From positions 128,816 to 192,815 of the forward strand of contig JAQIBV010000021.1 in the NCBI GenBank assembly GCA_027858855.1: a stretch of 64,000 nt of DNA. The letters run 5' to 3'. Under the pieces are notes generated by a model. That model saw only the letters and a program-made list of their open reading frames with translations. It did not search any database and was not told where the DNA came from. The translations under genes and the position numbers were made by a program. Every line of letters starts with the position of its first letter. Within the stretch, counting starts at the first letter, position 1. The DNA comes from Spirochaetota bacterium (lineage in GTDB: Bacteria > Spirochaetota > UBA4802 > JAFGJZ01). Shown here in pieces: positions 33,770 through 51,562 of this stretch.

Positions 33770-36700
33770 ATGTCAGAAAAGAAAAAAACTGTAAAAAAAA
33801 CAGTTAAAAAGTCTGCGAAAAAAAGAAGTAAGTCTTCAAAAAGGGTAAGTCCGGATATTGAATCCCGGGTTGAGGATTATCTGTATAATCCTGATACCAA
33901 GGAGAAGATTGAGCCTCCCAAGGAAGAACCTGTTGTAAAGCAGGCTTCATCTTCTGATGGTGGTGACGGTGATGGTGGTTCCGGGCGAAATGTGAAGAGA
34001 GCAGGGAAAAAAAGAGTCATTCAGAATATATATGGACGCATTGCCTTAACAGTGGCAAAAATTATATTTTTCTGGGTGCCTGCGGTTCTGTTTTCTCTGA
34101 TTTTTGTAGTATTAATTTTGGCAAAGGCTATTCTGTCACCCTCATTTGTTCAGGATCTTGCTGAAAGTTCATTCAAAGCCGTATCTTTTGGAACTCTTCA
34201 GCTTGAGGTCAAGGAATTTGATCCCTATCGTGGTTTCGTAATAGAACGGATTCTTGTGACAAGTGGTGATGATTACGACTCTGAACCGGTTTTTTCGTGT
34301 GAAAAACTTGTTCTGGATTACAGCTTTTTTTCACTGTTTACAGGCAAGGTGTATTTTCCTGAGGTGGGGATTTACAACCCCTCAATTTTCTTAACAGAAA
34401 ATGATTCTGGATGGAATGTTGCAAATTTGATGAGGCCATCAGAAAAGAAGCCAGAGGAAGAAAAGAAAGAGGAAGAAGATATTTTTGAGGATCCTTCAGA
34501 GCCAGCCGCAACTGAAATAAATCTTCCGATTTCAGCCGAAGTTCTTTTTAATTTTATTTTGGAAGATCTGTATATTAAAGTTCGTGGTAAAGAGATGTCT
34601 GCAGAACTCACAGATTTTGATATCAATACAATTATTGATATACCATCATTTAAAAGAATTCCCCTCGGGCCTGATGCGGTGGGACTGATTCGTAAGTTTA
34701 TAGTACAGGTCAACCCTGAAGAGAATCTGAACCTTACGTTTAAGTCGGATGTTGTAGAGGTTGTTCCTCCCCTGCTTTTTACATTTAACCTGATACTAGA
34801 TAGAGAGCTGAAAAAAGACTCCTCATTTTACAGTAATTTTAAAGCGGGAACTCAGGGGCGGCCGATTAATTTTCAAGGTGAGAGCATTAAGCCTCTTACC
34901 GTTAAAGCAGATTACTCACTGTCTTACAATGCGGTTGATGATCATCTGACTCTTGATAGTTTTGGTGTTACCTTTGCGGGTGATCGGTGGCTGGATCTAA
35001 AAGGAGAAGTTGTAAATCTTGTCAGTGAACAGCGATTCAATATTGTAATGGCGGAAAGTCTGATTGATCTGAATAAGTTATACCCCTATTATGTGGCGAT
35101 TTTAAAGGATGAATCTACGCGTTTCGGTGGTGAGATTTCACTAAAACCGATGCTTGTTAAGGGTGATCCATCTGATGTTAAGGCTCAGGGCGAAATATCT
35201 TTCTCTTCTATTCGTGCGAGTGTTCCCGGTTTTGCTTTGAATATGCCGTCTCTGCTTTTTGCGTATGATGTTCACTACAAAGATAATAATGTTACGGCAC
35301 AAACAGATATCAATATGTCGCGCTTTGTCTATACTCTTGACCGGTATACTTCCGGTTCGAATACTTTGCTTCTTTCAATGAAGGCCTCTACTGCTAAGGA
35401 ATTCCAACAGTTTTTCCTGAATTCACTGGATATGCAGCTTCGTGATAACCGTAGCGGTTTGAATGCATTTTCAATTAAGCTGGATGCTGATGCTGATATA
35501 TCTTCAGGTACAAAAGCTAATTTAAATATTAGCGAGCTTGTATTCAGAAAAGATCCTATGATAAACACTCTCCCATCATCTATTGGCAGTGGTATGAAGG
35601 ATATCCCTTTAAAACGGGCTGTCACAATGAACATGAAAGCAGGATATACGGGTACAAACACCGTTCATAGGGGTACAGTCTCTTTAGGAGTGCAAGTACC
35701 TGACTATGACGTGTACGATCTGCGACTTGCGACTACATCTCAGTTTGATGTCAGTACGAATATTGCCCGAATAGATTCTTTTCGAGTTACCAGTGCTTCG
35801 TACGGGCTAACGTTAAATACTAATGGATATCTGAATACAAATGCAACTGCTGACTCACCATTTGCTGATTCTGACATAAGGGTATCATTGCGTGTCAAAC
35901 AGAACAAGCTAAGAAAGATGTATGATGAGTGGAAAGTTTCAGGAATGATCGGCTTAAATGCTCATATGAAAGGTAGTTTATCCAATGGACGCGTGAACGG
36001 TAATATTCTTATAGAAGATCTTTCGCTAAATAATAGTCAAAAAGATGTTTTGTTTGATCTTGAAAAGATGAATATGAAATTTCCGTTTCTATATAACTTT
36101 AAGTCGACCTTTACAGGGGAATCAAAAACAGCTGCTGATAAGTCAAAACTCATTTCTAATCGACATTTCAAAGAAAAGGAGAATTTCACAATCAAGAGTA
36201 TACGGGCTAAACATCCTACCCGTGAGATTCAGTATGAATATCTAAAAGACTTTAACGCGATAATGCTCTTTAAAAATAATTCCTTTGATATTGAAAAACT
36301 ACAGGCCACTGTATTAAACGGATCTATATATATGCGGGATACCTTTTTCTATCTGGCTGATATGGATATAAATAATATGGAGTATAACCTGGCTTTTGAT
36401 GCAACAAACATCGATATCGGGAAACTGGATGATCCGAATAAAAAGACTAATGAGTCGGATCTGTCGCTTACTGCCCGGTTGTCTGGAAAAGGGTTGAATA
36501 TATCTGAAAGTGTTTCGACCAAAGGTTATGTAACTATTTATAAGATTGGGGAAGAGTTTGCGAATAATCTAATGAAGGCTCTTTCCACAAAAAAGGGAAA
36601 ATCGATGTTGGGTGCTCCGACACAGTTTGTTGTTGATAATGCGATGGCTCTTGAGAAGTTCTATTTTTATATAGATAAGGGGAATATTTATGCAAAGGTT

Positions 36701-36811
36701 CCTCCTGAACAACGACTGATAACCAAGCTTACTTTTATAAAAGTTAATGATATAGAATTTGTACGTATGCCCGTTCAGGAGTTTATGCGGAATCTGAGCG
36801 AAGGAGAATAG
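33770..36811 (+). CDS. Large AsmA/YdbH-like membrane-anchored envelope protein
   Basis: The 1013-residue protein has a Lys-rich cytoplasmic head (KKTVKKTVKKSAKKRSK), one membrane helix (about 95-121, KIIFFWVPAVLFSLIFVVLIL) and a very long periplasmic beta-rich region. Its N-terminal part (FVIERILVTSGDD to LTENDSGWNVANLMRP) and C-terminal part (LSGKGLNISESVSTKGYVTIYKIGE) resemble the AsmA/TamB/YdbH superfamily, whose members form grooved bridges that move phospholipid between membranes. The next gene encodes a DUF1318 (YdbL-like) protein two bases later, as ydbL lies near ydbH in proteobacteria, which supports the YdbH-type reading. Family membership is by pattern, not by alignment. Confidence 0.7.
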   Translation: MSEKKKTVKKTVKKSAKKRSKSSKRVSPDIESRVEDYLYNPDTKEKIEPPKEEPVVKQASSSDGGDGDGGSGRNVKRAGKKRVIQNIYGRIALTVAKIIFFWVPAVLFSLIFVVLILAKAILSPSFVQDLAESSFKAVSFGTLQLEVKEFDPYRGFVIERILVTSGDDYDSEPVFSCEKLVLDYSFFSLFTGKVYFPEVGIYNPSIFLTENDSGWNVANLMRPSEKKPEEEKKEEEDIFEDPSEPAATEINLPISAEVLFNFILEDLYIKVRGKEMSAELTDFDINTIIDIPSFKRIPLGPDAVGLIRKFIVQVNPEENLNLTFKSDVVEVVPPLLFTFNLILDRELKKDSSFYSNFKAGTQGRPINFQGESIKPLTVKADYSLSYNAVDDHLTLDSFGVTFAGDRWLDLKGEVVNLVSEQRFNIVMAESLIDLNKLYPYYVAILKDESTRFGGEISLKPMLVKGDPSDVKAQGEISFSSIRASVPGFALNMPSLLFAYDVHYKDNNVTAQTDINMSRFVYTLDRYTSGSNTLLLSMKASTAKEFQQFFLNSLDMQLRDNRSGLNAFSIKLDADADISSGTKANLNISELVFRKDPMINTLPSSIGSGMKDIPLKRAVTMNMKAGYTGTNTVHRGTVSLGVQVPDYDVYDLRLATTSQFDVSTNIARIDSFRVTSASYGLTLNTNGYLNTNATADSPFADSDIRVSLRVKQNKLRKMYDEWKVSGMIGLNAHMKGSLSNGRVNGNILIEDLSLNNSQKDVLFDLEKMNMKFPFLYNFKSTFTGESKTAADKSKLISNRHFKEKENFTIKSIRAKHPTREIQYEYLKDFNAIMLFKNNSFDIEKLQATVLNGSIYMRDTFFYLADMDINNMEYNLAFDATNIDIGKLDDPNKKTNESDLSLTARLSGKGLNISESVSTKGYVTIYKIGEEFANNLMKALSTKKGKSMLGAPTQFVVDNAMALEKFYFYIDKGNIYAKVPPEQRLITKLTFIKVNDIEFVRMPVQEFMRNLSEGE

Positions 36812-36813
36812 AA

Positions 36814-37374
36814 ATGAGATCTGGATATTTAATAATAATTATTTTACTTGCTTCGTGTAGTACAATTGTACCGCCAAAAATGTATATTACCGGTGAAAAG
36901 ACATTAACCGAAAGTCAGGTTGTTGGAGACTATAAAGAGATTGAAAAGGATGCATGGGCTATTTCTTCAGTAGAAACTCATGTTCAGCGTGAAGCCAGTA
37001 AGAACAGATCGGCAATTGGAGATGAAGAGATTTTTAAAGCTATGAAAATTCGGGAATACCATGCCGATGTAATTCGTGAGTATAAGTCGGAGGGAGTAAT
37101 TGGAGAGGCGAATAACGGTCTGGTTGCATATCGTCCGGTTGAAGAATATGAGACAGATACGGACTTACGCCGAATCGTGAGGCTTGTAGTTGAAGAGGAG
37201 AATAGTGCCCGAACTACGATTTTCCGAAGAACATTGGTACTGGGTGGAAAGGCAAGCCCTACCCCCTTTGATATTAGAACCTTCGGAGAAAAGTTTGCCG
37301 AAGAACAGAGAGATGCTGCTTTAGAGGGCGATTGGATTCAAAATACTTCCGGAAACTGGTTTACAAAAAGATGA
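36814..37374 (+). CDS. DUF1318 (YdbL-like) lipoprotein
   Basis: The 186-residue protein has a signal sequence with lipobox LLASC (Cys15). Residues about 85-150 match DUF1318: IREYHADVIREYKSEGVIGE, ANNGLVAYRP, then DLRRIVRLVVEEENSARTTIFRR. In E. coli, YdbL is a soluble periplasmic partner of the YdbH-YnbE lipid-transport bridge, and YnbE is the lipoprotein. Here a lipid anchor and the DUF1318 domain are on one chain, possibly merging both roles (inference). It follows the AsmA-like gene by two bases and overlaps the giant CHAT gene (ATGA). Confidence 0.8.
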   Translation: MRSGYLIIIILLASCSTIVPPKMYITGEKTLTESQVVGDYKEIEKDAWAISSVETHVQREASKNRSAIGDEEIFKAMKIREYHADVIREYKSEGVIGEANNGLVAYRPVEEYETDTDLRRIVRLVVEEENSARTTIFRRTLVLGGKASPTPFDIRTFGEKFAEEQRDAALEGDWIQNTSGNWFTKR

Positions 37375-40300
37375 AAAAAGCAAAACACCTAATAATAATT
37401 AATCTGTTAATTCTTGTGAGTCTCGGGGCTTTCGGCTGTGATGAAGACGAACTTTCAATCAGCATGAGTTACCCAGAAATGCTGGAGCAGGCCTTTAATG
37501 AAACAGGGGAAGGAAGAATAATTCCCGTAACTATTGAAAATGCAATTGAGGTGGATGGTTCTCTGGTAAGTAATGGTCGGTATTTCTTTTATACCTCTAA
37601 CAAGTATAGGGGAAATTATGATATTTATCTCCGTTCAATGCGTGATATTACTACCGTAAAGGTAATTTCCCATGCATCAAGTGACTATTCATCTGCAATA
37701 TCACCGAATGGAAAATATCTGGCTTTTGTTTCAGAACGGGAGGATCCGGAAGGTGATATTTATGTTTTAAGAGTGAAGTCACGTTCATTAATAAGAGACC
37801 AGCGTGATATAAAGAAAAAAGTCTCCTCCCTGGATTCTGATGCAAAGAATATATCACAGATTGTTGAAGCTGGTACTAGAAGAAAAACAGTCGTAAGGGA
37901 TTCAAACCCGACATGGTCACCTGATAGCAAATTAATTGCCTTTTCATCGGAACGAAATGGAATTGGGAATATATATATTTGTGAAAGGGATGGAGATAAT
38001 CTTCAGCAAATAACTACTGAGGGGGGAATGTATCCATCTTTTTCTCCGGATGGTAAAAAAATAGTCTACATTTCTTATCGAAATCCAAAGAATAATGGAG
38101 ACATCTATGTCGTTGATCTTGAAACAAGAGAGGATATTCAGATAACAGATACACTTTCGGTCGAGATGAGCCCGGCCTTTAGTGCAACAACAGATGAAAT
38201 AATCTATACTTTGATTGATAAGGATACTAATAATGACCGTATTATCGATCTTAAAGACAGATCCGTTATTCAATACAGGAATCTTGTAAACAATCACTCT
38301 TATGCTCTTACCTTTTATTCTAATTCAACGTTTTCTCCCCGTTATTTCCCCTATTTTGGTCAGAAATATTCAGAAAGTGATGTTGATAACTTTATGGGTG
38401 TAATTGTTTTTTCACAGCAGGTTGGAAATAATATAGATCTTAATCTAATTCCTGAATATGGAGTAATTCCTAAAAGAGAAAATGCGCAGGATCAGTTTGA
38501 ATTGGCACTTCGATATCTTAACGAATACAATGATTATGACAAGTATAATGAAGCATTAATGCGTGTTTTTTACTTTTTTTATCAAGCTGAAGATTCAGTC
38601 AGTAGAACCTTTATTGCGCGGGCAATTCGTGCGCGTGCACAGGAATATGTCAATAATCGTGAAAGAGAAAAAATTGCAGGCCTTATAACTGCAATAAACA
38701 GTATTAACAGAGAAGAAGAGAAAGACTATGTGTCTGTTTCTTTAGACTATCTCTCGGCGTTGTTATCTGGTTCAAATGAAGAGTCTGTTTTAAAAGAGGC
38801 TGCTTCCGGTTTAGCTGAAACAATGTATGCGCCTTTTGTACTAGAAGATCTTGGAAATTATTATCGCAAAGCAGGGCTTAAAGTTAAAGCCACAGATGTG
38901 TATGAAAATCTTTTAGCTACATTTCCTGACTATGAAAGAAAAATGTATATTAGCGAGTTTCTGGCAGCGATGAACTATAATGCTCCTACAGAAGAGATCT
39001 CTCCTTATTATATTGAAATTTTGAACAATGGTGCTGCATATCAAAAGGACGCAACCATTAGAGCGCTTTCAACTCTTTTTATGAGTGGTTATGTTCCGAG
39101 TCGGCGTCTAATGATGATGGATCTTTATCGTGAATTATATGGCTCCAGAGAAGGGCGCGCTGCCGATTTAATAACGGCATTATCAATATACATCAAGCAG
39201 TTAACCCTGTTTCAGCAGTCTGATTCGGCAGCTTCGCCGGAAGAGCTTATTACTTTGTTGAAAGATGTTTCTGACGAAAATATCCTCTATTATCGAATTA
39301 ATAAATTATTGGCCGACATGGCTTTGCGTCAGAAGGATGCTACTTTGGAAGAGAAGTATTTAAGTAGGTCTGTAAATAGTTATAAAGAACGATGGCGGCA
39401 AAATGATCTTGAAGAGATAATTATGCGTCTGATAGACATTTATGAGAATAAAGGACTTGCATTTGAAAAAAAGGGAGAGCTTAAAAAGGCTGTTAAAATC
39501 TATGAAGGATACACCGGCTTTCTTTCGGCATTGAAAAGCAAAAGAGTGTCTAAATTTGAATATATTTATAATGGATATGGAGCCAGGTCGCATATTCTTT
39601 ATATTGATGCCTATATGCAGTTAAAGGGAGCAACTTATAGTAACTTTGAACGTCTTGTAGAAAAATATGAGGATGGAGCAGCAAAGGCCCGCAAAAATTA
39701 TGATAAGGCTCATATCTATGGTTTGGGATATCTATATTCCAGATATGCTCTTTTTTGTGATAAGGAATACCAGAATACTTATGAAATTACTAAAAGAAGA
39801 AGCAGAGTGGAAGAGGACGAGGAGGAAGAATTAGATAGTGAACAGATAGCTTCTCTATTCTATAAGTCTGTTGAAGCATTGAATTGGGCCCTGTTTATGG
39901 ACGATTCTTTTTCTGATCCCTATCTGTTAAAAGGGTGGATATATCAGTATTTAGATTATCGTCGCGAATTTGAACTAAGAAAAGAGTACCCGCTGGGAAA
40001 ACATTTGGAAGCATATTTTCCGGCTAGCTTGCTTGAGGACAATATTGAGACTTATGAAAAGGCTTTGAGTGCAAACAATGAATTGCGTTATGCAGAAAAA
40101 GAGGGAAACCTTCACCTTAATCTCGGAAATACCTATTTTATGCTTCGTAATTACCCTGAGGCGATAATTCATTACAATGCCGTTGCAAAATATAAGAAAA
40201 ATTTTTCTTCAAAAAAAGAAGAGGCCTATTTTAGGTTTCATCTGGGCTATTGTAATTATCAGATGGGAAATAATCAGGAGTCTTTGAAAGAGTTTAATCG

Positions 40301-43300
40301 GGTTGAATCAATTTTTAAAGATATTTCTGGCGGAAAGATCAACAGACTGAATGTGAATGCCTTTATAATGGTTTATCGTTATTACGGTCTAATCTCTCAA
40401 ATGGAAGGAAAATATAGCGACTCGATTAAGTGGTACAATGCAATACTTAATGAAGCAGCGAAATATAATATAAAAATCGACCGTGCTCGTTATTATCAGG
40501 AAATTGCGAATTGTCATATAGAACTAAAAGAGTACAAAACTGCAACTGAACATATTAACCGTGCTGATCGCTTGATCAAAAATGACGATAGTCGTGAGTT
40601 CTGGATTCATAATCTTGATGCAGAGTTTTTGGGACTTATACCTCTGCCTTTGTTTGATTTTGAAGATATGGCTGTTGTTGGTGCGGGTCGTATATATCGA
40701 GAATTTGATCTTGAGACCAAAAGTTACTACAGTCTTTCTTTACTTGAAAAAATTCATTATACCAAGGGGGATTATCGATCGGTAATTAAAGTTCAGAAGA
40801 AAAAACTTAAATTGCTTAAAGGAAAGAAGCGAATTTTTCATAATGAAATCCGTTTAAGAGCTTTGAATAATTTGGGACATGCATACTTTGTTCTGGGAGA
40901 TTATAAAGAATCAGAAAATTATTTTTTGCAGGCTTGGGAAACTTCTGATTCGCTTGGGGATAATGAAGGAATGTTCATGGCCATTCAGAATATGACTAGC
41001 CTTTATAGCTTTATTCTGGAAAATAAACCGGATTATTATGAAAACCCGATTAGTGAGATAAACAAAATAATCGTAGAGATTGATAGCTACTCTGAAGCGT
41101 ATGAAAAAAAAGAGTATTCTACTCGGTTGGATCAGCTTGAAGATACCAGGAAAAAACGTGGCCTAGATGAGCCAACACCAGAGGATCGACGGTTACTGGC
41201 GCGTGAAGTTGCAGAGGATGCAAAGAGAAAGTTTTTTAAATTAGAGATTAATAAGGCGACTCTTAACTTCTATAAAGCTGAGTTACTGCACGATTCATAT
41301 GTGAATTCACTTGCAAAGGAGAAAGCCGATACTTCGGAAATAATATTCAGTTCAAATCGAAATATTTTTCAATACTATTATACCTCAGCTGAGATTTTTG
41401 AAAAGGCATCTGAAGGTGATGCCATAAGTCAGCAGATGAAGCTTAAACTGATGTTGAATGCAACAATTTCCCGACAGAAGCTTGGACAGGCAGCAGAGGC
41501 TTATTCGGTTCTTGAAAAGGCCTTAAAGATATCTAAGTATTATCAGTTTGATGAGATTAGTTATCTGATCTATTATAAGCAGGCTCGTTTTCTCGAAGAG
41601 AATTCTAAGGCAATCGGAATATCGGCTAAAAAAACCGGTGAACGATATGAAAATGCAATTGCGATTATTGAAGAGCTGCCGCAACAGTTTTATAATCGTG
41701 AGTCAATGGTGAATAATATTTATAATGACTATACCAGATATTTAATTTCGGAAAAGCAGTATACAAAAGCATTAAGGATACAGCAGCGTAAGCGGTCAGT
41801 CGCCTTAATTAATGCTACCTATCTCTCTTCTCCTTCTTTCGGAACAGTTTCGGAAAAAAATCTGTTCGATTCCTATAAGAACATTGTAAGTAATCTTTTG
41901 ATTCTGAAAAGAAACTATTCGAATCTGCTTGAGAAATACAATGATCAGTCTCGCCCTGAAATTGTTAGAATGAAGAATGAAATTGCTACATATAAAGAGC
42001 ATCTCTCTATAATAAACTATGAGAATCCGTTACTTCAAAAATTGATAAAACAATCAGTAACTGACTTTGACAGTGGAAATTCAGTTATTTATGAATTTAT
42101 GAGAAATGGTAATGATCTGCATGTGTGGCGAGTTGATGGTCAAGATGTCGATTATTCTTCTTTAGAGCTTGATTCTGATGATAAGTTAAAGAGAGCCATA
42201 AACGGTCATCTGAAAGAGACTGCTAGTGCGGAACGGCCTGTGTATCTAATATTCAATGAGACGATGAAAAAAACCATTGGAGAGATAAAAGCCGAAGCCG
42301 TTGAAACTGATCCGGTTGAATTTATGTATATTTGTTCATTTCAGGACTTAACATTTCTGGAAAAAACCGGAAAGACTCTTAACAGAAACGAATATACAAT
42401 AACTGATGATCTTGAAGAGTTGCTGGAGTCTAAGGAGGATCTGATTAAGTATTCCGTCATTATTGATAACAAGTTATCATCATTTGATACTTCAGAGATT
42501 TTGTTTTCAAAAAAAATCAGACCCTCATTATTAATTAAAAGTTTTAATGATGCACCAGTTTCACAGAATCATCTGTTGTATTACTCCGCATTGTATGCGG
42601 GAGCCTCTAACCTGGTGCTGCATTCAAACGGAGAAAAATATAAAGAGTTTACAACTTTCAGTCAGTTTAACTCTCTTCAGAATGGAAAGAAGACCTCTTA
42701 TTCCTTTGGTATCAATAGAGCGGTTTTTCCTGATGATACGGAGCGGATAGATGTTGTAAACAGCCTTTATGATCAATTTCAGAGTAGTCTGCTTCAGGGC
42801 GACCCTGCAAGTGCCAGGTTTTATCTTTTCCGTTGGTATGAAGCTGCAAAAAGCCTTGCGGATACCGAGGTTAATTATCTGTTTAATCTTGCACAGGTGT
42901 ATGACTATGAATTTCGAAGTGATGAGGCTGTTAATGAGTTAAAAAAAGTCGATTTGTCAACTATTGAGAATGTTGAGTCGTATAAAAGAGTTGTGAGTCA
43001 CATAATCTATTACTATCTGCGGGCTGGAGACATTACCGGTGCTGAAAACTATATGGAAGATCTTCCAGATATTGAAATCGATAGCCCAATAGTTGCCGAT
43101 GCTGACAGTGAAACAGATAGTGCAATAGTTGCCGATGCTGATGGTGAAACAGATGGCGTAACAGTTGCGGACGCTGACAGTGAAACAGATGGAGCAACAG
43201 TTGCGGACGCTGATAGTGAAACAGATAGTGTAATATTTGCTGAAACAGATATCTATAAACGTTCTGCTGATTATCGGTTTTTCAGTAATTTAATTACATC

Positions 43301-45335
43301 TGTAAAAAATTATCAAGGTGGAGTCTTTGACTTTTCGGGTACTACTGTACAGACATATAAACTTGCAGTTCTGACCGCTCGTTTCTTATCCACTTACGGC
43401 AAATACAATGAAGCCGCAAATGCTCTTTCTGCTGTTAAGGAGACAGATCTTCTTAATTATTCAGATCTTTTATTTGTTAATAGCCTGGTTAGTTTCCGTT
43501 CTCCCTATGTTCGGGATCCGAGGGTTCTTGACATTATTGATATCAGACAAATGAGTACATATGAGAATCTAAGGGATAGATATTTATCTGTAGTCGAGAT
43601 TGCTGGTTTGCATGACAGTTATTCGAAATATAGTGTACTGATGGCTTTAGACAGGTTAACCGGGCTTCTTGCTTCACAAAAAGTAAATGAAGTTGTGAAA
43701 GAGGACTCTTTGACTGGCATTGGCCTTAAGGGCGCTGTTCTTGATCAGATATTCTTCTTTGTAAAAGTTTCTGACTACTTATATCAAACTGGATCATATG
43801 AAAACAGTGTGATGCTGTTGAACCAGGCATTGTCGGTAGCAGATAAACATAAAACACAGTATGCTAAGGGTTTCCTTCATTATCGTTTGGCACAATACCA
43901 TGCTCGTGAAGAGAACTTCGTAGAAGTTGAAAGCGCACTTTCTAATATAGATGAGATAGCGGTTGCGAATAGTCTTTATGCTGATGTTAAACTTTTACAG
44001 GCTGAAGTAATGTCTCGAAATGGAGAGAATGAAGACAGTCAAAAGTTGATTTCTTCAATTTATTTGGTTCGTAACGATCATCAGATTACCAGAAGACTGA
44101 TTGGTATCTATAATGATTATTTGATGCATAAAGACAGTGGTGATGATTTGGTTGGCTTTCTGTCAAATAATCAGACTGTTTTAGATGAAGCATTACTGTT
44201 GCTTAAAAACGAGAGAGCAGGTGTAAATGTTTTTGAAAGATATCTGTTTTTTGATGAAGTATTGAACTGCTTCATAGAGGCGAATGCGAATGCTGGAAAT
44301 AACAGTAATGCAATTGCATTGGCAGAAAGAAAAAAACAGATACGACTGTTTCAGCTTTTCCCCGAGGAACTGGTTGTAAGCGAAAGTCTTTATGATGCAA
44401 AAACAAGAGCATTTTTGAAGGGTGAGTCAGTTTTGAAATCGCTTGAAGACGTATATTCGGTATTAGCGGATAAGAGTGCGGTATTATACTTTGAAAAGGT
44501 TCAATCAGATATTTATGTTTGGGTTATTGGAAATAAAACTGTAAATCATGTTGTGTTGAAAAATGGATATTTACGTTTCTCAGAACTCACAGAAATGTAT
44601 GAAGCTAATTTGCTTTCATTTTATCCAATGTCTGCGACAACGGCGGGTTTTAATTCATTATTTGTTAATTTATTAACCCAAATTGAGGGTTATGATAAAT
44701 TCTATGTTGTTTCCTCTTCAAAACTTCACAATCTCCCACTTGAACTAATGGGAGAAATTGCTCTTATAGAAAATAATGATATCAGTTATCTACCGGCACT
44801 TTCTGTTCTTTCCTCAAATAAAGATAAAGCAGTAAATAAGACTGTGTTTGTTCTTCAAAGTGAAAATGAGCTTGTTAATGATTATCTTGAGTTATTGGCT
44901 ATCAAAGAGTCTGGTTTGATACAGAAAACTGCGGTTGAACAAAAATCGTTTTCTGATATGGGTATTACACATGTTCAACAGGAGTTGTTCTGGGAGCCTG
45001 TAGCCGGAGTTTATGTTCTGAAAGGTAATCCTTATTCAGAAGTAATTGGGAATCAATATGTAACATATGTTTCAACAAATAGTTGTCTGTTGAATGATCC
45101 AAGTAGTTTTGTTTTGTATAATTTAGCATTGGGTAATACAGCTGTGGTTTTGAATAGAACAATGATTCGTGATATTAATAGTGCGATTCTTGTTCGGGAA
45201 TTCTATTCAGGTCTCCGAAGAGGAGAATCAGCTTCATCCTCTTTTTCTAATGCTTTAAGAAAAATATATTACAATAATCAAATATCTCATCCATCATATT
45301 GGTCTAAAACAAGATTATATGAGTCTGCTAAATAG
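37371..45335 (+). CDS. Giant lipoprotein: beta-propeller, TPR arrays, two CHAT-like domains
   Basis: The 2654-residue protein starts at ATG 37371 overlapping the previous stop; the signal ends in the atypical lipobox GAFGC. Residues about 65-330 are TolB/PD40-like propeller blades (SPNGKYLAFVSERED, SPDSKLIAFSSERNG, SPDGKKIVYIS). TPR-type helical repeats fill about 380-1560 (NLHLNLGNTYFMLRNYPEAI). A degenerate CHAT-like region lies at about 1560-1800 (SVIYEFMRNGNDLHVWRVDG). Four 12-residue repeats lie at 1904-1951, more helical repeats follow, and a C-terminal CHAT domain occupies about 2366-2654 with a candidate catalytic His2534 (GITHVQQELFW) and Cys2572 (VSTNSC). CHAT proteins are caspase-like proteases. 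Location is probably periplasmic; substrate unknown. Confidence 0.8.
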   Translation: MKKAKHLIIINLLILVSLGAFGCDEDELSISMSYPEMLEQAFNETGEGRIIPVTIENAIEVDGSLVSNGRYFFYTSNKYRGNYDIYLRSMRDITTVKVISHASSDYSSAISPNGKYLAFVSEREDPEGDIYVLRVKSRSLIRDQRDIKKKVSSLDSDAKNISQIVEAGTRRKTVVRDSNPTWSPDSKLIAFSSERNGIGNIYICERDGDNLQQITTEGGMYPSFSPDGKKIVYISYRNPKNNGDIYVVDLETREDIQITDTLSVEMSPAFSATTDEIIYTLIDKDTNNDRIIDLKDRSVIQYRNLVNNHSYALTFYSNSTFSPRYFPYFGQKYSESDVDNFMGVIVFSQQVGNNIDLNLIPEYGVIPKRENAQDQFELALRYLNEYNDYDKYNEALMRVFYFFYQAEDSVSRTFIARAIRARAQEYVNNREREKIAGLITAINSINREEEKDYVSVSLDYLSALLSGSNEESVLKEAASGLAETMYAPFVLEDLGNYYRKAGLKVKATDVYENLLATFPDYERKMYISEFLAAMNYNAPTEEISPYYIEILNNGAAYQKDATIRALSTLFMSGYVPSRRLMMMDLYRELYGSREGRAADLITALSIYIKQLTLFQQSDSAASPEELITLLKDVSDENILYYRINKLLADMALRQKDATLEEKYLSRSVNSYKERWRQNDLEEIIMRLIDIYENKGLAFEKKGELKKAVKIYEGYTGFLSALKSKRVSKFEYIYNGYGARSHILYIDAYMQLKGATYSNFERLVEKYEDGAAKARKNYDKAHIYGLGYLYSRYALFCDKEYQNTYEITKRRSRVEEDEEEELDSEQIASLFYKSVEALNWALFMDDSFSDPYLLKGWIYQYLDYRREFELRKEYPLGKHLEAYFPASLLEDNIETYEKALSANNELRYAEKEGNLHLNLGNTYFMLRNYPEAIIHYNAVAKYKKNFSSKKEEAYFRFHLGYCNYQMGNNQESLKEFNRVESIFKDISGGKINRLNVNAFIMVYRYYGLISQMEGKYSDSIKWYNAILNEAAKYNIKIDRARYYQEIANCHIELKEYKTATEHINRADRLIKNDDSREFWIHNLDAEFLGLIPLPLFDFEDMAVVGAGRIYREFDLETKSYYSLSLLEKIHYTKGDYRSVIKVQKKKLKLLKGKKRIFHNEIRLRALNNLGHAYFVLGDYKESENYFLQAWETSDSLGDNEGMFMAIQNMTSLYSFILENKPDYYENPISEINKIIVEIDSYSEAYEKKEYSTRLDQLEDTRKKRGLDEPTPEDRRLLAREVAEDAKRKFFKLEINKATLNFYKAELLHDSYVNSLAKEKADTSEIIFSSNRNIFQYYYTSAEIFEKASEGDAISQQMKLKLMLNATISRQKLGQAAEAYSVLEKALKISKYYQFDEISYLIYYKQARFLEENSKAIGISAKKTGERYENAIAIIEELPQQFYNRESMVNNIYNDYTRYLISEKQYTKALRIQQRKRSVALINATYLSSPSFGTVSEKNLFDSYKNIVSNLLILKRNYSNLLEKYNDQSRPEIVRMKNEIATYKEHLSIINYENPLLQKLIKQSVTDFDSGNSVIYEFMRNGNDLHVWRVDGQDVDYSSLELDSDDKLKRAINGHLKETASAERPVYLIFNETMKKTIGEIKAEAVETDPVEFMYICSFQDLTFLEKTGKTLNRNEYTITDDLEELLESKEDLIKYSVIIDNKLSSFDTSEILFSKKIRPSLLIKSFNDAPVSQNHLLYYSALYAGASNLVLHSNGEKYKEFTTFSQFNSLQNGKKTSYSFGINRAVFPDDTERIDVVNSLYDQFQSSLLQGDPASARFYLFRWYEAAKSLADTEVNYLFNLAQVYDYEFRSDEAVNELKKVDLSTIENVESYKRVVSHIIYYYLRAGDITGAENYMEDLPDIEIDSPIVADADSETDSAIVADADGETDGVTVADADSETDGATVADADSETDSVIFAETDIYKRSADYRFFSNLITSVKNYQGGVFDFSGTTVQTYKLAVLTARFLSTYGKYNEAANALSAVKETDLLNYSDLLFVNSLVSFRSPYVRDPRVLDIIDIRQMSTYENLRDRYLSVVEIAGLHDSYSKYSVLMALDRLTGLLASQKVNEVVKEDSLTGIGLKGAVLDQIFFFVKVSDYLYQTGSYENSVMLLNQALSVADKHKTQYAKGFLHYRLAQYHAREENFVEVESALSNIDEIAVANSLYADVKLLQAEVMSRNGENEDSQKLISSIYLVRNDHQITRRLIGIYNDYLMHKDSGDDLVGFLSNNQTVLDEALLLLKNERAGVNVFERYLFFDEVLNCFIEANANAGNNSNAIALAERKKQIRLFQLFPEELVVSESLYDAKTRAFLKGESVLKSLEDVYSVLADKSAVLYFEKVQSDIYVWVIGNKTVNHVVLKNGYLRFSELTEMYEANLLSFYPMSATTAGFNSLFVNLLTQIEGYDKFYVVSSSKLHNLPLELMGEIALIENNDISYLPALSVLSSNKDKAVNKTVFVLQSENELVNDYLELLAIKESGLIQKTAVEQKSFSDMGITHVQQELFWEPVAGVYVLKGNPYSEVIGNQYVTYVSTNSCLLNDPSSFVLYNLALGNTAVVLNRTMIRDINSAILVREFYSGLRRGESASSSFSNALRKIYYNNQISHPSYWSKTRLYESAK
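43080..43223 (+). repeat. 36-bp coding tandem repeat (four copies) in the giant gene
   Basis: Four consecutive 12-codon units encode D-S/G-x-I/T-V-A-D-A-D-S/G-E-T, followed by a partial fifth unit to 43250. They form an acidic, probably flexible linker between the degenerate CHAT-like half and the C-terminal half. Confidence 0.9.
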
Positions 45336-45533: not shown

Positions 45534-46712
45534 ATGATTACAACAATACCTATTGCTATAGTTTCAGAGGATGACTATCTACCGGGAATCATCTCGAAGG
45601 TTATAAGATCATTCAAAGTAGATCAGTATTTATCGATTGAAAACTTTACAATATCCTCCGGTTTTATTGAAACCAATATTGTAATTATTGATTTTTCTTC
45701 AGTTAATTTGAGCATTGAGGATTTGGATACACTTTCAGGCTTTAAGAATAAAATACATATTATTGGGGTTGTCAGAATCGAAGATTACCACAATATTGAT
45801 GCTGATATGTGGAAGCACGTCTCCGAGGTTGTTCTTAAGCCTTTTCATCCAAACAGTTTAGTATTTGCCCTTGATCGATCTGTTAAACAGTTAAAGGGAG
45901 AGAAATCTGATGGTTTGCTGATTTCTGAGTTTAAGAAATACAGTGAGCAGCTTGAGAGGAATACAGCACAGGCTAATATTCGAAGCAGTAAGTTTAATAA
46001 CGATCTTGATATGGCAAGTAACCTGCAGGAGTGTCTATACCCTAAGGATTTGCCGGATATTCGTAATATCAGGTTCGCTTCAAAATATAGATCTCTCGAA
46101 AAAATTAGTGGAGATTTTTATCATTTTGAGAAATTCTCTTCAAACAGGTTCTCCCTTCTATTTGCAGATGTTTCAGGTCATGGAGTAACCGCCGCTCTGT
46201 ATTCGGCAATGGTGAAAAGTGCAATATCGTCTATAAATTTTGAAAGAGTTTCTCCCGCAGAAGTAGTAAAGCGGATGAATAAATTTCTTATAAGTGCGCA
46301 AAAGAAACCCAGCTATAATTATGTAACTATCTGTTATTCTTCTTTCGATTTAAAAAAGCAGAAGGTAACGTATTGTAATGCAGGATTACCCGCTCCATTG
46401 TTGATATCTAACAATAATGTAAAAAAAATGAATAATACTGGTCCTTTTGTGGGGATTTTTGACGCTGCAGAGTACCAGGAAGAGAGTGAAAAGTTTGTTC
46501 CCGGGGATAAAATGCTGTTTTTTACTGATGGAGCTTATGAGGATATAGAAGATTTTAATATTAAGAAAGGGTACCAAAAGGTTTTTTCAATAGTCGATAA
46601 GAATAAAGCACAAAAAATAAATGAAATCGTTGAAGAAATGTTTGCGATATTAGAAAACACACCAATAAAAAATGATGATAGTACCTATCTTGGAATTGAG
46701 TATATTAAATAA
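45534..46712 (+). CDS. Receiver-like/PP2C (RsbU-type) serine phosphatase
   Basis: The 392-residue protein begins with a receiver-like domain (about 1-120: IAIVSEDDY, VIIDFSS, VVLKPFHP), fairly diverged but keeping acidic, Asp and Lys positions. A helical linker ends in DLDMASNLQECLYP. The PP2C/SpoIIE domain has SGDFYHF, ADVSGHGVTAAL, FTDGAYED and NDDSTYLGI. It would dephosphorylate a STAS-type protein. It lies 198 bases after the giant CHAT gene and overlaps the next lipoprotein gene by one base. Upstream ribosome site is weak (TGAGG at 45516-45520). Confidence 0.88.
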   Translation: MITTIPIAIVSEDDYLPGIISKVIRSFKVDQYLSIENFTISSGFIETNIVIIDFSSVNLSIEDLDTLSGFKNKIHIIGVVRIEDYHNIDADMWKHVSEVVLKPFHPNSLVFALDRSVKQLKGEKSDGLLISEFKKYSEQLERNTAQANIRSSKFNNDLDMASNLQECLYPKDLPDIRNIRFASKYRSLEKISGDFYHFEKFSSNRFSLLFADVSGHGVTAALYSAMVKSAISSINFERVSPAEVVKRMNKFLISAQKKPSYNYVTICYSSFDLKKQKVTYCNAGLPAPLLISNNNVKKMNNTGPFVGIFDAAEYQEESEKFVPGDKMLFFTDGAYEDIEDFNIKKGYQKVFSIVDKNKAQKINEIVEEMFAILENTPIKNDDSTYLGIEYIK

Positions 46713-48384: not shown

Positions 48385-49599
48385 CTAATCCATAATTTTT
48401 ATATAAATATCAATTTTTTTCTGCAAGTAGTTTCTGCTGTAACTGTTTTCCTGTACGGAATAGTCGGCTTGAATTATTTTGTATTGATTAAGTATTTCCC
48501 GTGCATTCTGATTCAGTTCCCGTTTGTGCTGTTTAATAGAAGTCAGGCTTGTTAGAAATAGATTTCTGTTATAAAGAGATAAAAAGTAGTTTCCTGATGG
48601 AGAGAAAAGAATATCTTCACCTTCCATTGGCATAAATCGCAACATATTGTTTGTTTTATAATAATAACTTATAATGCCGTCTTGTAAAAAAGTTATATAG
48701 TTATCATATGGAGTATGTGTGATATTGGTATTTAAGGACCGTTTTACAAGGTTGAAATTTGACTTTGTAATGGCGTTATAGACGAAAACACTATAGTTAC
48801 CCAGATAACCACCACGATAAGAGAAGTGATTATTGTCTATCCAGGTGATTTCTCTTGCAGAGGTAATACCTGAAACTTTTGTGAAATTGTTTTTGTGGTA
48901 CAGATAAGCCTTATAGCTGCCTCCTCCCCCATTTATAAATAATATTTTATCGTCCATGGGTGAAGGAAATATGAGGGTTGTGTTTTTCGAAGAAAAGAGA
49001 TGAGAGTATTGTCTTTTGGGGATGATGAGTTTTTCACGACGTTGATCTGGAAAGTACTGGCAAATACCTCTTTCTGTCTCATAAAATATTGTGTCTCCGT
49101 AAAATGAAACTGTAAAATCTGTAAGTACCGTGTTAGACCTTCGTGTGTGATAACTGTTTTTTCGTAAATTTACAATGACAAGTTGATTTTTTATTGAGCG
49201 GCCGTTTATTATCAGGTTTTTTAAAAAAAGAAAATGCCCATTTTGCGATAATTTTGCGTGAATAATAGCGCCATTAATTTTATGTAAGCGGCGTCGAATT
49301 CGTGATGCAGGATAATACTCATAAACATAGTTAACGTCTGAATTTATATACTCTTTTACATAAACCAACCTTTTTCCTGATGACCAGCCGGCAAACATGA
49401 CACGATTATCAATTGTTGTGGCTTTTGTAATCTTATATGCATTTAATTTAAGGTTGATCAACCTCTTATAGGATGAAGAGTCATTATTAATATAGATTTC
49501 ATCCAGATTTATATCTCGAGATGAAACGGACAAAGGAATTAATAAAATAAAAAAAAGGAGACAAACTTTCGTAAGTCTCCTTAAACAAAGAATAATCAT
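48385..49599 (-). CDS. Exported propeller-like hypothetical protein
   Basis: The 404-residue protein has an N-terminal signal (VCLLFFILLIPLSVSS) and then about 350 residues of repeating beta strands separated by short turns (RVMFAGWSSGKRLVYVKEY, NGHFLFLKNLIING, ITWIDNNHFSYRGGYLGNYSVFVY, DNYITFLQDGIISYYY, GEDILFSPSGNYFLSL), consistent with a TolB-like six- or seven-bladed propeller. Family not recognised. Its signal-peptide codons coincide with an intrinsic-terminator-like structure (49549-49582), which may tune its expression relative to the upstream LysM gene. Confidence 0.6.
   Translation of the reverse strand: MIILCLRRLTKVCLLFFILLIPLSVSSRDINLDEIYINNDSSSYKRLINLKLNAYKITKATTIDNRVMFAGWSSGKRLVYVKEYINSDVNYVYEYYPASRIRRRLHKINGAIIHAKLSQNGHFLFLKNLIINGRSIKNQLVIVNLRKNSYHTRRSNTVLTDFTVSFYGDTIFYETERGICQYFPDQRREKLIIPKRQYSHLFSSKNTTLIFPSPMDDKILFINGGGGSYKAYLYHKNNFTKVSGITSAREITWIDNNHFSYRGGYLGNYSVFVYNAITKSNFNLVKRSLNTNITHTPYDNYITFLQDGIISYYYKTNNMLRFMPMEGEDILFSPSGNYFLSLYNRNLFLTSLTSIKQHKRELNQNAREILNQYKIIQADYSVQENSYSRNYLQKKIDIYIKIMD
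49549..49582 (-). terminator. Terminator-like structure inside a signal-peptide coding region
   Basis: On the - strand AAGGAGAC, a 12-base loop and GTCTCCTT form an 8-bp stem followed by eight T residues. It lies about 30 bases past the LysM gene's stop and inside codons 6-18 of the next gene. Confidence 0.6.
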
Positions 49600-49612
49600 A
49601 TATTTACCGATA

Positions 49613-51301
49613 CTATCTTTTCTCAGGAGTAGTTGTTATTTCACTACTAGTTGACGAGTCTGTTCTGTCACCATCTTTTTTGCTTTTGGTAGATGGAATA
49701 ACAAATTTTTGACCCGGAAAAATAAGATCAGGATCTTTAATTTTGTCACGGTTTGCTGAGTAGATTAATGGCCATAGCTCAGCTTTTTTATAGAAGCGCC
49801 ATGCAATTTTCCAAAGACAGTCTCGATCCGCTTTGTTGAGAACAACTGTATACTCTTTTGGAAAGCCGTCGGCATCTGTAGCATAAGAGTCGTCGGTCGA
49901 TGAATCTTCGTCAGTTAAATCGTCTCCGGTTATCACGACATCCTTTGAAAGCATAATGGCGTCAAGTGCGGCAAGTGCAGCATCAGCCTTGCTTTCGGCA
50001 GAATCGATTCTTTCTGATGAATAGTCATCGCGGGCGCCAGCAATGGTTGTTTCGGTTTTAGCAATAGGATCGGCATGTTTGCTTGCAAGTTCACTGTCCT
50101 TTTTTACTGAAATAAGAGTGTCTTCTGCTGTTTCAATCTTTTTAAGTACGAGATACTTATGACCCTTAGCATCTGCAATTTCAAGAGCTTTTTCTGCGCG
50201 CTCGATGTTGTCGACTGCCGGTTTAATTTCATTTTTTGCCAAAGAACCTTCGGCGGCTGTCAGTGTTGAAGCCATGATAGAGAGCTCTTCAGGAGCATAC
50301 TCTTTACCATTTCGAAGTTCATGCTCTCTGTGAGCGTCCCGTAAATCGGCAATTCTGGTTTTAAGAGCCGGAATTTTAGCAAGACTATCGCTTTTGGCTT
50401 TTGTAGCAAGTTCAAGAGCCTTTTCTGCTCTTACTGTTGAATCCATAAATTCAGCTTTAGAGTTATGGGTTTTAGCGGCATCCAGTTCTGTTTTCGCAAC
50501 GGAAAGAGATGCGGCAGCAAATTTTTCGGCCATTACCCGCTGGGCTTCATCTATCTCTTTCTGAGCCGCAGCCATGGCGCTTCGAGCCATTTTCGAAAGA
50601 GCTGAATTTAAGGTGCGTTTTGCGCCTTCTATTTCAGAGTATCCCTTTCTAATGTTACTTTCTGTGAGTGATTTGTCTGCAGCTGTAAGCATTGTGTTGG
50701 CACTGTTCAGTTCTGCAGTTGCAGCAGATGAAGATTTAAGTTTACGCGCATCTTCAATCTGTTTTTTTATCTCAGCAATTTGAGTTTTAAGATTTGGAAT
50801 CTCTTTTAAAGCGGCTTCGTAAGATTCGGTGGCAAGTTTTTTTGCTTCAATAGCTTCATCGTGAGCTGCAATATAGTCTTTACCGTTATAAGTTTTAATT
50901 GCTCCGTTAAGAGAAGCAGTAGCCTTGTCGTGTTCGGGTTTGGCAAACTCTGAGGCCATAACAGAATTTGCTTTAGCATACTCTGCTTTTGCTTCATTGA
51001 TTTTTGCAAGTGCTCGAGGTGGAAGAGCATCACGTTTTGCTGTTTCGGCCATTGTAAGTGCTTCTTTGGCCTTCTCTTTTGCTTCATCAGTCTCTTTTTC
51101 CATTACATGAGCGTTTGCTTCTTTAAGAAGCTCGGTAGCCCTTTCATAGCTTCTTCTGGAAAATTTGCTGGCCTCGAATTTTTCCGCTTCGCTTATGGCA
51201 AGTTTTGCTCTTGTCATCTCTTTGATTGGCACTTCAAGAGCGCAGGAAAAAAACAGAAACAGAATAAGAGAAGCTATAATTCCCTTTTGAATATTACGCA
51301 T
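49613..51301 (-). CDS. Ala/Glu-rich helical lipoprotein with C-terminal LysM domain
   Basis: The 562-residue protein has a lipoprotein signal (FLFFSC, about Cys20), then about 430 residues of repeated Ala/Lys/Glu-rich helices (KLAISEAEKFEASKFSRRSY, MASEFAKPEHDKATASLNGAI, MAEKFAAASLSVAKTELDAA) resembling DUF4398-type coiled coil. A LysM peptidoglycan-binding motif follows near residues 485-540 (YTVVLNKADRDCLWKIAWRFYKKAELWPLIYSANRDKI, PGQKFVIP). Similar lipoproteins (treponemal Tmp type) are common in spirochaetes. The start at 51301 is chosen because GGAGG lies five bases upstream. It probably tethers the outer membrane or periplasm to the cell wall and heads a four-gene unit. Confidence 0.82.
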   Translation of the reverse strand: MRNIQKGIIASLILFLFFSCALEVPIKEMTRAKLAISEAEKFEASKFSRRSYERATELLKEANAHVMEKETDEAKEKAKEALTMAETAKRDALPPRALAKINEAKAEYAKANSVMASEFAKPEHDKATASLNGAIKTYNGKDYIAAHDEAIEAKKLATESYEAALKEIPNLKTQIAEIKKQIEDARKLKSSSAATAELNSANTMLTAADKSLTESNIRKGYSEIEGAKRTLNSALSKMARSAMAAAQKEIDEAQRVMAEKFAAASLSVAKTELDAAKTHNSKAEFMDSTVRAEKALELATKAKSDSLAKIPALKTRIADLRDAHREHELRNGKEYAPEELSIMASTLTAAEGSLAKNEIKPAVDNIERAEKALEIADAKGHKYLVLKKIETAEDTLISVKKDSELASKHADPIAKTETTIAGARDDYSSERIDSAESKADAALAALDAIMLSKDVVITGDDLTDEDSSTDDSYATDADGFPKEYTVVLNKADRDCLWKIAWRFYKKAELWPLIYSANRDKIKDPDLIFPGQKFVIPSTKSKKDGDRTDSSTSSEITTTPEKR

Positions 51302-51562
51302 AAATTCCTCCATTAATTCTCTATAGAATAGACCATAACTGGTTTATAACAACAATATGGAATATCCCTTTTTTCTTTTAAAATTCCGGTTTCATGTAAA
51401 GAGTACCATTGACCGTCTGTATTAATCAATAAATATAAGATTAATTAAAAAAAAAATAGCTAAAAAAATAAATTAGATTATTATTTGAAATCTTTCAATA
51501 AAAAAATAGATCTTATAAAATAAAATGGAAGTAAAGAGACATAAAAGGTGGTTGGCAGTAGT

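Follow-up and report, generated by a model that had tools for sequence, protein, structure and literature searches.

Genes at the locus and domains of the giant protein

The 64,000-nucleotide stretch analysed here, referred to as the window (positions 128,816 to 192,815 of contig JAQIBV010000021.1, assembly GCA_027858855.1, from a Spirochaetota bacterium), contains an uninterrupted reading frame at 37371–45335 that encodes a protein of 2,654 amino acids. This gene, called the giant gene below, is supported by its translation and by orthologues in other genomes, and it is preceded by genes for an AsmA-clan protein of 1,013 amino acids (33770–36811) and a DUF1318 (YdbL-like) lipoprotein of 186 amino acids (36814–37374). 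All three genes lie on the forward strand, as do all of the features of the giant gene given below, and the giant gene is translationally coupled to the DUF1318 gene, its start codon sharing bases with the stop codon of the latter (ATGA). Most of the 40 orthologous loci have the genes in this arrangement (AsmA–DUF1318–giant), usually with an overlap of 4–18 nt.

The AsmA-clan protein was assigned to the LIC_11026 family (YdbH/DUF748-like) by Pfam and NCBIfam matches, which remain under the respective cut-offs, and by homologues in the same place at most loci. The DUF1318 protein matches PF07027 (E-value, 1e-9; 39.2 bits against a cut-off of 27), and its family profile matches the solved YdbL 28oj (E-value, 0.0013). 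DUF1318 lipoproteins also share a conserved N-terminal segment, PPxITLTGEKTxxERQxxGEYxELEKDAW, which lies outside the Pfam domain.

A preliminary description, made from the DNA sequence alone, had presented the giant as an exported lipoprotein with a propeller and tetratricopeptide repeats (TPRs), and the reading frame, the signal peptide, and the Pfam matches to PD40 and TPR families agree with this. The signal peptide (37371–37439) consists of MKKAKHLIIINLLILVSLGAFG followed by a lipobox-like Cys23; the lipobox, AFG and then Cys, is plausible, with an atypical residue at position −3. A lipobox-like Cys is present in 36 of the 39 readable orthologue N-termini (34 by script, and L066 and L067 by eye), and the other three (L037, L041, and L043) have signal peptides without it. 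As judged from these sequences, the giant is probably exported and lipid-anchored.

The propeller is of the TolB/PD40 type and spans approximately residues 50–370 (37518–38480), with support from PD40 repeats in Pfam (E-value, 6e-26), TolB chains in PDB, and a phylum-wide alignment (A1). Within it, the conserved motif DTNNDRIIDLKDRS (residues 285–298; 38223–38264), in which D285, N287, and D296 are invariant across 21 diverse orthologues, appears to resemble a calcium loop. A TPR solenoid follows, with matches to several Pfam TPR families and a conserved core at residues 740–1230 (39588–41060), from which profile A4 was built. The propeller and the TPR core are the parts kept in every orthologue. 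The acidic linker of DADSETD-type repeats reported previously is indeed encoded by a tandem DNA array (43068–43240) with periods of 72 and 36 bp; residues 1901–1950 within it have zero occupancy among orthologues of the same order. None of the Pfam and NCBIfam library families searched names the giant as a whole.

A CHAT fold that has lost its catalytic residues

The preliminary description had placed two CHAT-like domains in the giant, one in the middle and one at the C-terminus, and only the latter was borne out by structure prediction and fold comparison. Pfam detects CHAT at residues 2587–2646 (E-value, 3.9e-7; 30.2 bits against a cut-off of 24), and the AlphaFold2 model of residues 2280–2654, built with 28 orthologues, has a pLDDT of 85.5 and a pTM of 0.88. 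In a Foldseek search of PDB, this model matched the Craspase TPR-CHAT protein best (E-value, 8e-9; TM, 0.62), and Csx29 and separases were also recovered. When three intact CHAT domains from the window's order were compared with it by hhalign, the probability was 94% (E-value, 1e-7). The predicted structure thus indicates a CHAT/caspase-hemoglobinase (separase) fold for the C-terminus, with the domain at residues 2366–2654 (44466–45332). The C-termini of 13 proteins of families f11 and f34 are homologous to it (hhalign probability, 95%).

The middle α/β region (residues 1560–1800; 42048–42770) gave a weaker model (residues 1470–1880; pLDDT, 77; pTM, 0.76), for which Foldseek returned nothing at an E-value of ≤0.001 and Craspase appeared only at rank 36 (E-value, 0.12). 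Profile comparison by hhalign gave no match to either set of CHAT domains. By eye, the succession of strands and helices is similar to that at the start of a CHAT domain, which is too little to count as evidence.

The catalytic dyad of CHAT domains consists of the second His of HxxxHG and the Cys of the LSAC motif. In intact CHATs of the same order these motifs read IHFACHG and VTLSACETG (LSACxTG), and neither catalytic residue is found in the C-terminal domain of the giant. Its His strand reads ITHVQQEL, in which His2534 corresponds to the first, non-catalytic His of HxxxHG, and the position of the catalytic His is occupied by Glu2538 (HVQQE; 44970–44984). Over the 28 aligned proteins used for the dyad columns, this position is held by E, P, L, Q, N, K, and others, and by His in none. 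The second strand, VTYVS (residues 2564–2568), is followed by T2569, which occupies the catalytic-Cys position by strand register in the alignment and the AlphaFold2 model, and then by N, S, and Cys2572, three residues beyond (45060–45086). The Cys2572 column contains Cys in only one of the 28 proteins, that encoded in the window. His2534 and Cys2572, which had been proposed as a caspase-like dyad, are therefore present where they were reported, but we reject them as a dyad because the register is wrong for both residues and Cys2572 is not conserved.

An active envelope protease, in which the C-terminal CHAT domain would cleave periplasmic or outer-membrane proteins through His2534 and Cys2572, is very improbable. 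The fold is that of CHAT proteases and separases, and the two residues are 38 apart, near the 42 that separate the dyad H585/C627 in the TPR-CHAT protein of Craspase (PMC9729208), but the substitutions and column counts above speak against catalysis. In the leptospiral-type C-termini (f11 and f34), moreover, the end of the domain is conserved but the active-site strands are not, and much of that region cannot be aligned. Several orthologues have no such domain. Three from family f6 (L038, L077, and L086; 1,784–1,870 amino acids) stop after the middle region, and L124 of genome G071 (1,438 amino acids) has neither the middle region nor CHAT. The G150 orthologue (1,455 amino acids) resembles the G071 form, but a contig end is near. 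No match to the C-terminus was found elsewhere in G071, in G150, or in the f6 genomes G112 and G174.

We conclude that the C-terminal domain is very probably no protease; its alignment argues strongly for a pseudo-enzyme, here a pseudo-caspase. Of the CHAT protease that had been suggested for the envelope, the export signal, the likely lipid anchor, and the CHAT fold stand, and the protease does not. A domain search taken by itself would lead to annotation of the C-terminus as a protease, which these results correct; they also provide a case in which an exported protein would retain a caspase fold without the catalytic residues.

Distribution and co-occurrence in Spirochaetota

Homologues of the same architecture were searched for in 198 Spirochaetota genomes. 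The whole-protein search gave matches in 88 genomes at an E-value of ≤0.001 (propeller-only matches included), and profile A4 gave 92 strong matches at an E-value of <1e-40, to which N-terminal pieces in G164 and G189 were added, for a total of 94 genomes. Most orthologues have 2,250–3,070 amino acids. A full-length single-protein scan of genome contigs gave no match. In the propeller-alignment search, the named matches were metagenome-assembled genomes (MAGs) labelled ‘Spirochaetota’, ‘Spirochaetes’ or ‘Spirochaetia’, and six others were low-identity propeller matches in other phyla. The architecture, previously regarded as unusual, is so as a combination of folds but is no curiosity: the giant is a conserved, so far unnamed family shared by distantly related spirochaetes. 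The partner genes of family f11 score 1,004–1,113 bits against LIC_11026 of Leptospira, and the family therefore represents the Leptospira lineage; the AT-rich f15/g30 group is probably the Brachyspira lineage. Searches of the literature on leptospiral locus tags and on DUF1318 in spirochaetes yielded nothing useful.

The giant and DUF1318 genes occur together in 91 genomes, the giant alone in 3, DUF1318 alone in none, and neither in 104. The AsmA family was found in 65 genomes, every one of them giant-positive. The co-occurrence extends to genomes in which the genes are unlinked: in G055, the giant, DUF1318, and AsmA genes lie at three distant places on one contig, and in the f15/g30 genomes the giant is apart from the other two, with a divergent AsmA homologue adjoining DUF1318. 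Some f11 genomes have a pair of paralogous giants together with two DUF1318 genes (L047/L064 in G178, L066/L067 in G029, and L065 with G100:C27 in G100).

YnbE (PF13617) was absent from all 46 genomes of the window's order, and the E. coli control was positive. LpxC was not found in the window's genome or in most genomes of its order, and these spirochaetes, which do have the AsmA/DUF1318/giant module, are therefore probably without lipopolysaccharide (LPS). In the whole sample, the giant and LpxC occur together in 67 genomes, the giant without LpxC in 27, and LpxC without the giant in 39. A specific role in LPS handling was dropped because the giant is not closely tied to LpxC and the window's genome has no LpxC.

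Proposed role and comparison with known systems

The route by which phospholipids traverse the periplasm is still debated, and most of the work on it has been done in E. coli. There, the AsmA-clan proteins YdbH, TamB, and YhdP are proposed phospholipid transporters, and YdbH works with the outer-membrane lipoprotein YnbE, which is encoded with YdbL (PMC8593681, PMC12977461, PMC11784454). By analogy, the partners of the giant suggest lipid transport to the outer membrane instead of protein cutting. We favour, with a probability of roughly 55%, the reading in which the giant belongs, as third component, to an envelope module conserved among spirochaetes and acts as a lipid-anchored scaffold or docking partner of an AsmA lipid conduit, with a pseudo-caspase end. 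The AsmA protein of the LIC_11026 family would probably form an intermembrane conduit, a role proposed for YdbH in E. coli, and the membrane-attached giant would hold or regulate it, possibly standing in for the small lipoprotein YnbE. The propeller, the TPRs, and the pseudo-caspase would bind partners, the CHAT fold having become a binding module. We advance more tentatively the wider proposal of an undescribed inter-membrane lipid-transport machine, in which the giant would take over from YnbE the docking or regulatory role at the AsmA conduit and which would occur in the Leptospira lineage, probably in Brachyspira, and in many uncultured spirochaetes.

Several points weigh against this proposal. 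The AsmA-clan partner matches DUF748 of Pfam at an E-value of 4e-7, under the cut-off, and NF047499, the NCBIfam model of the LIC_11026 family, at 271 bits (E-value, 1.6e-80), short of the cut-off of 325. The AsmA relative in f15 was confirmed in one locus only, and at an E-value of 1e-30 the AsmA profile does not detect the Brachyspira-like clade. The three giant-positive genomes in which DUF1318 was not found comprise two MAGs of 82–83% completeness and one of 91%. The Fisher value for the co-occurrence, 1e-53, ignores the kinship of the genomes and overstates the evidence because they are related, and in the window's order joint loss could reflect the loss of one operon; co-occurrence where the genes are unlinked counts for more. 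The DUF1318 protein, itself a lipoprotein, could fill the YnbE role instead. Finally, the complex and lipid transport in spirochaetes are proposed from the partner genes, and the membrane that would carry the anchor and the part played by the pseudo-caspase are likewise inferred.

A reading in which the roles of YnbE and YdbL fall to a single chain, the DUF1318 lipoprotein, and the giant serves the module peripherally in quality control would fit the lipid anchor of the DUF1318 protein, its conserved N-terminal segment (PPxITLTGEKTxxERQ) ahead of the DUF1318 domain, and the failure to find a separate YnbE. It leaves unexplained, however, why the giant is present in every DUF1318-positive genome sampled, and we consider it improbable.

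The genes downstream of the giant bear on a further alternative. In the window, a gene for a SpoIIE-type phosphatase identified by Pfam follows (45534–46712, forward strand); elsewhere in the order, several families have a response regulator-SpoIIE fusion that overlaps or abuts the giant gene, and others have a FecR gene in this place. The giant might be an exported scaffold or sensor for another envelope process, such as the assembly of outer-membrane proteins, a function in peptidoglycan or periplasmic flagella, or signalling to the response regulator/SpoIIE phosphatase encoded downstream, with the operon serving co-expression. A propeller combined with TPRs is a generic scaffold, and the response regulator-SpoIIE genes directly 3′ of the giant in several families would suit such a role, but the downstream genes vary by lineage (SpoIIE, FecR, or genes on the opposite strand), whereas AsmA and DUF1318 are kept even when unlinked. 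This alternative seems unlikely to us, less so than a merged DUF1318 protein. Further downstream, on the reverse strand, are genes for a predicted exported protein with propeller-like repeats recognized by eye (48385–49599) and a predicted exported lipoprotein that is rich in repeats and has a LysM-like stretch at its end (49613–51313).

The scaffold or docking role that we prefer for the giant would provide a testable three-gene candidate system in another phylum, with a very large component and with no match to the small E. coli lipoprotein. As in the YdbH-YnbE-YdbL lipid bridge of E. coli, an AsmA-clan protein and a DUF1318/YdbL-like protein are encoded together and components are lipoproteins (PMC8593681, PMC11784454). 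Unlike that system, the spirochaetal module has no detectable YnbE, its DUF1318 protein is itself a lipoprotein, and a propeller-TPR(-CHAT) lipoprotein of 2,250–3,070 amino acids is added. We know of no E. coli counterpart of the latter. The LIC_11026 family (NF047499), a hypothetical equivalog of Leptospira, names the AsmA partner only, not the giant. The PD40 propeller is like that of TolB in the Tol-Pal system, and TolB chains are the best sequence matches in PDB, but the giant scores 83.6 bits against the TolB model cut-off of 343 and, unlike TolB in architecture, continues into a TPR solenoid. In contrast to Craspase, a cytoplasmic protease (PMC9729208), the giant carries an export signal, has lost the catalytic His and Cys, and bears a fused propeller, and it shares with the TPR-CHAT protein of Craspase, with Csx29, and with separase the succession of TPRs and a CHAT/separase fold.

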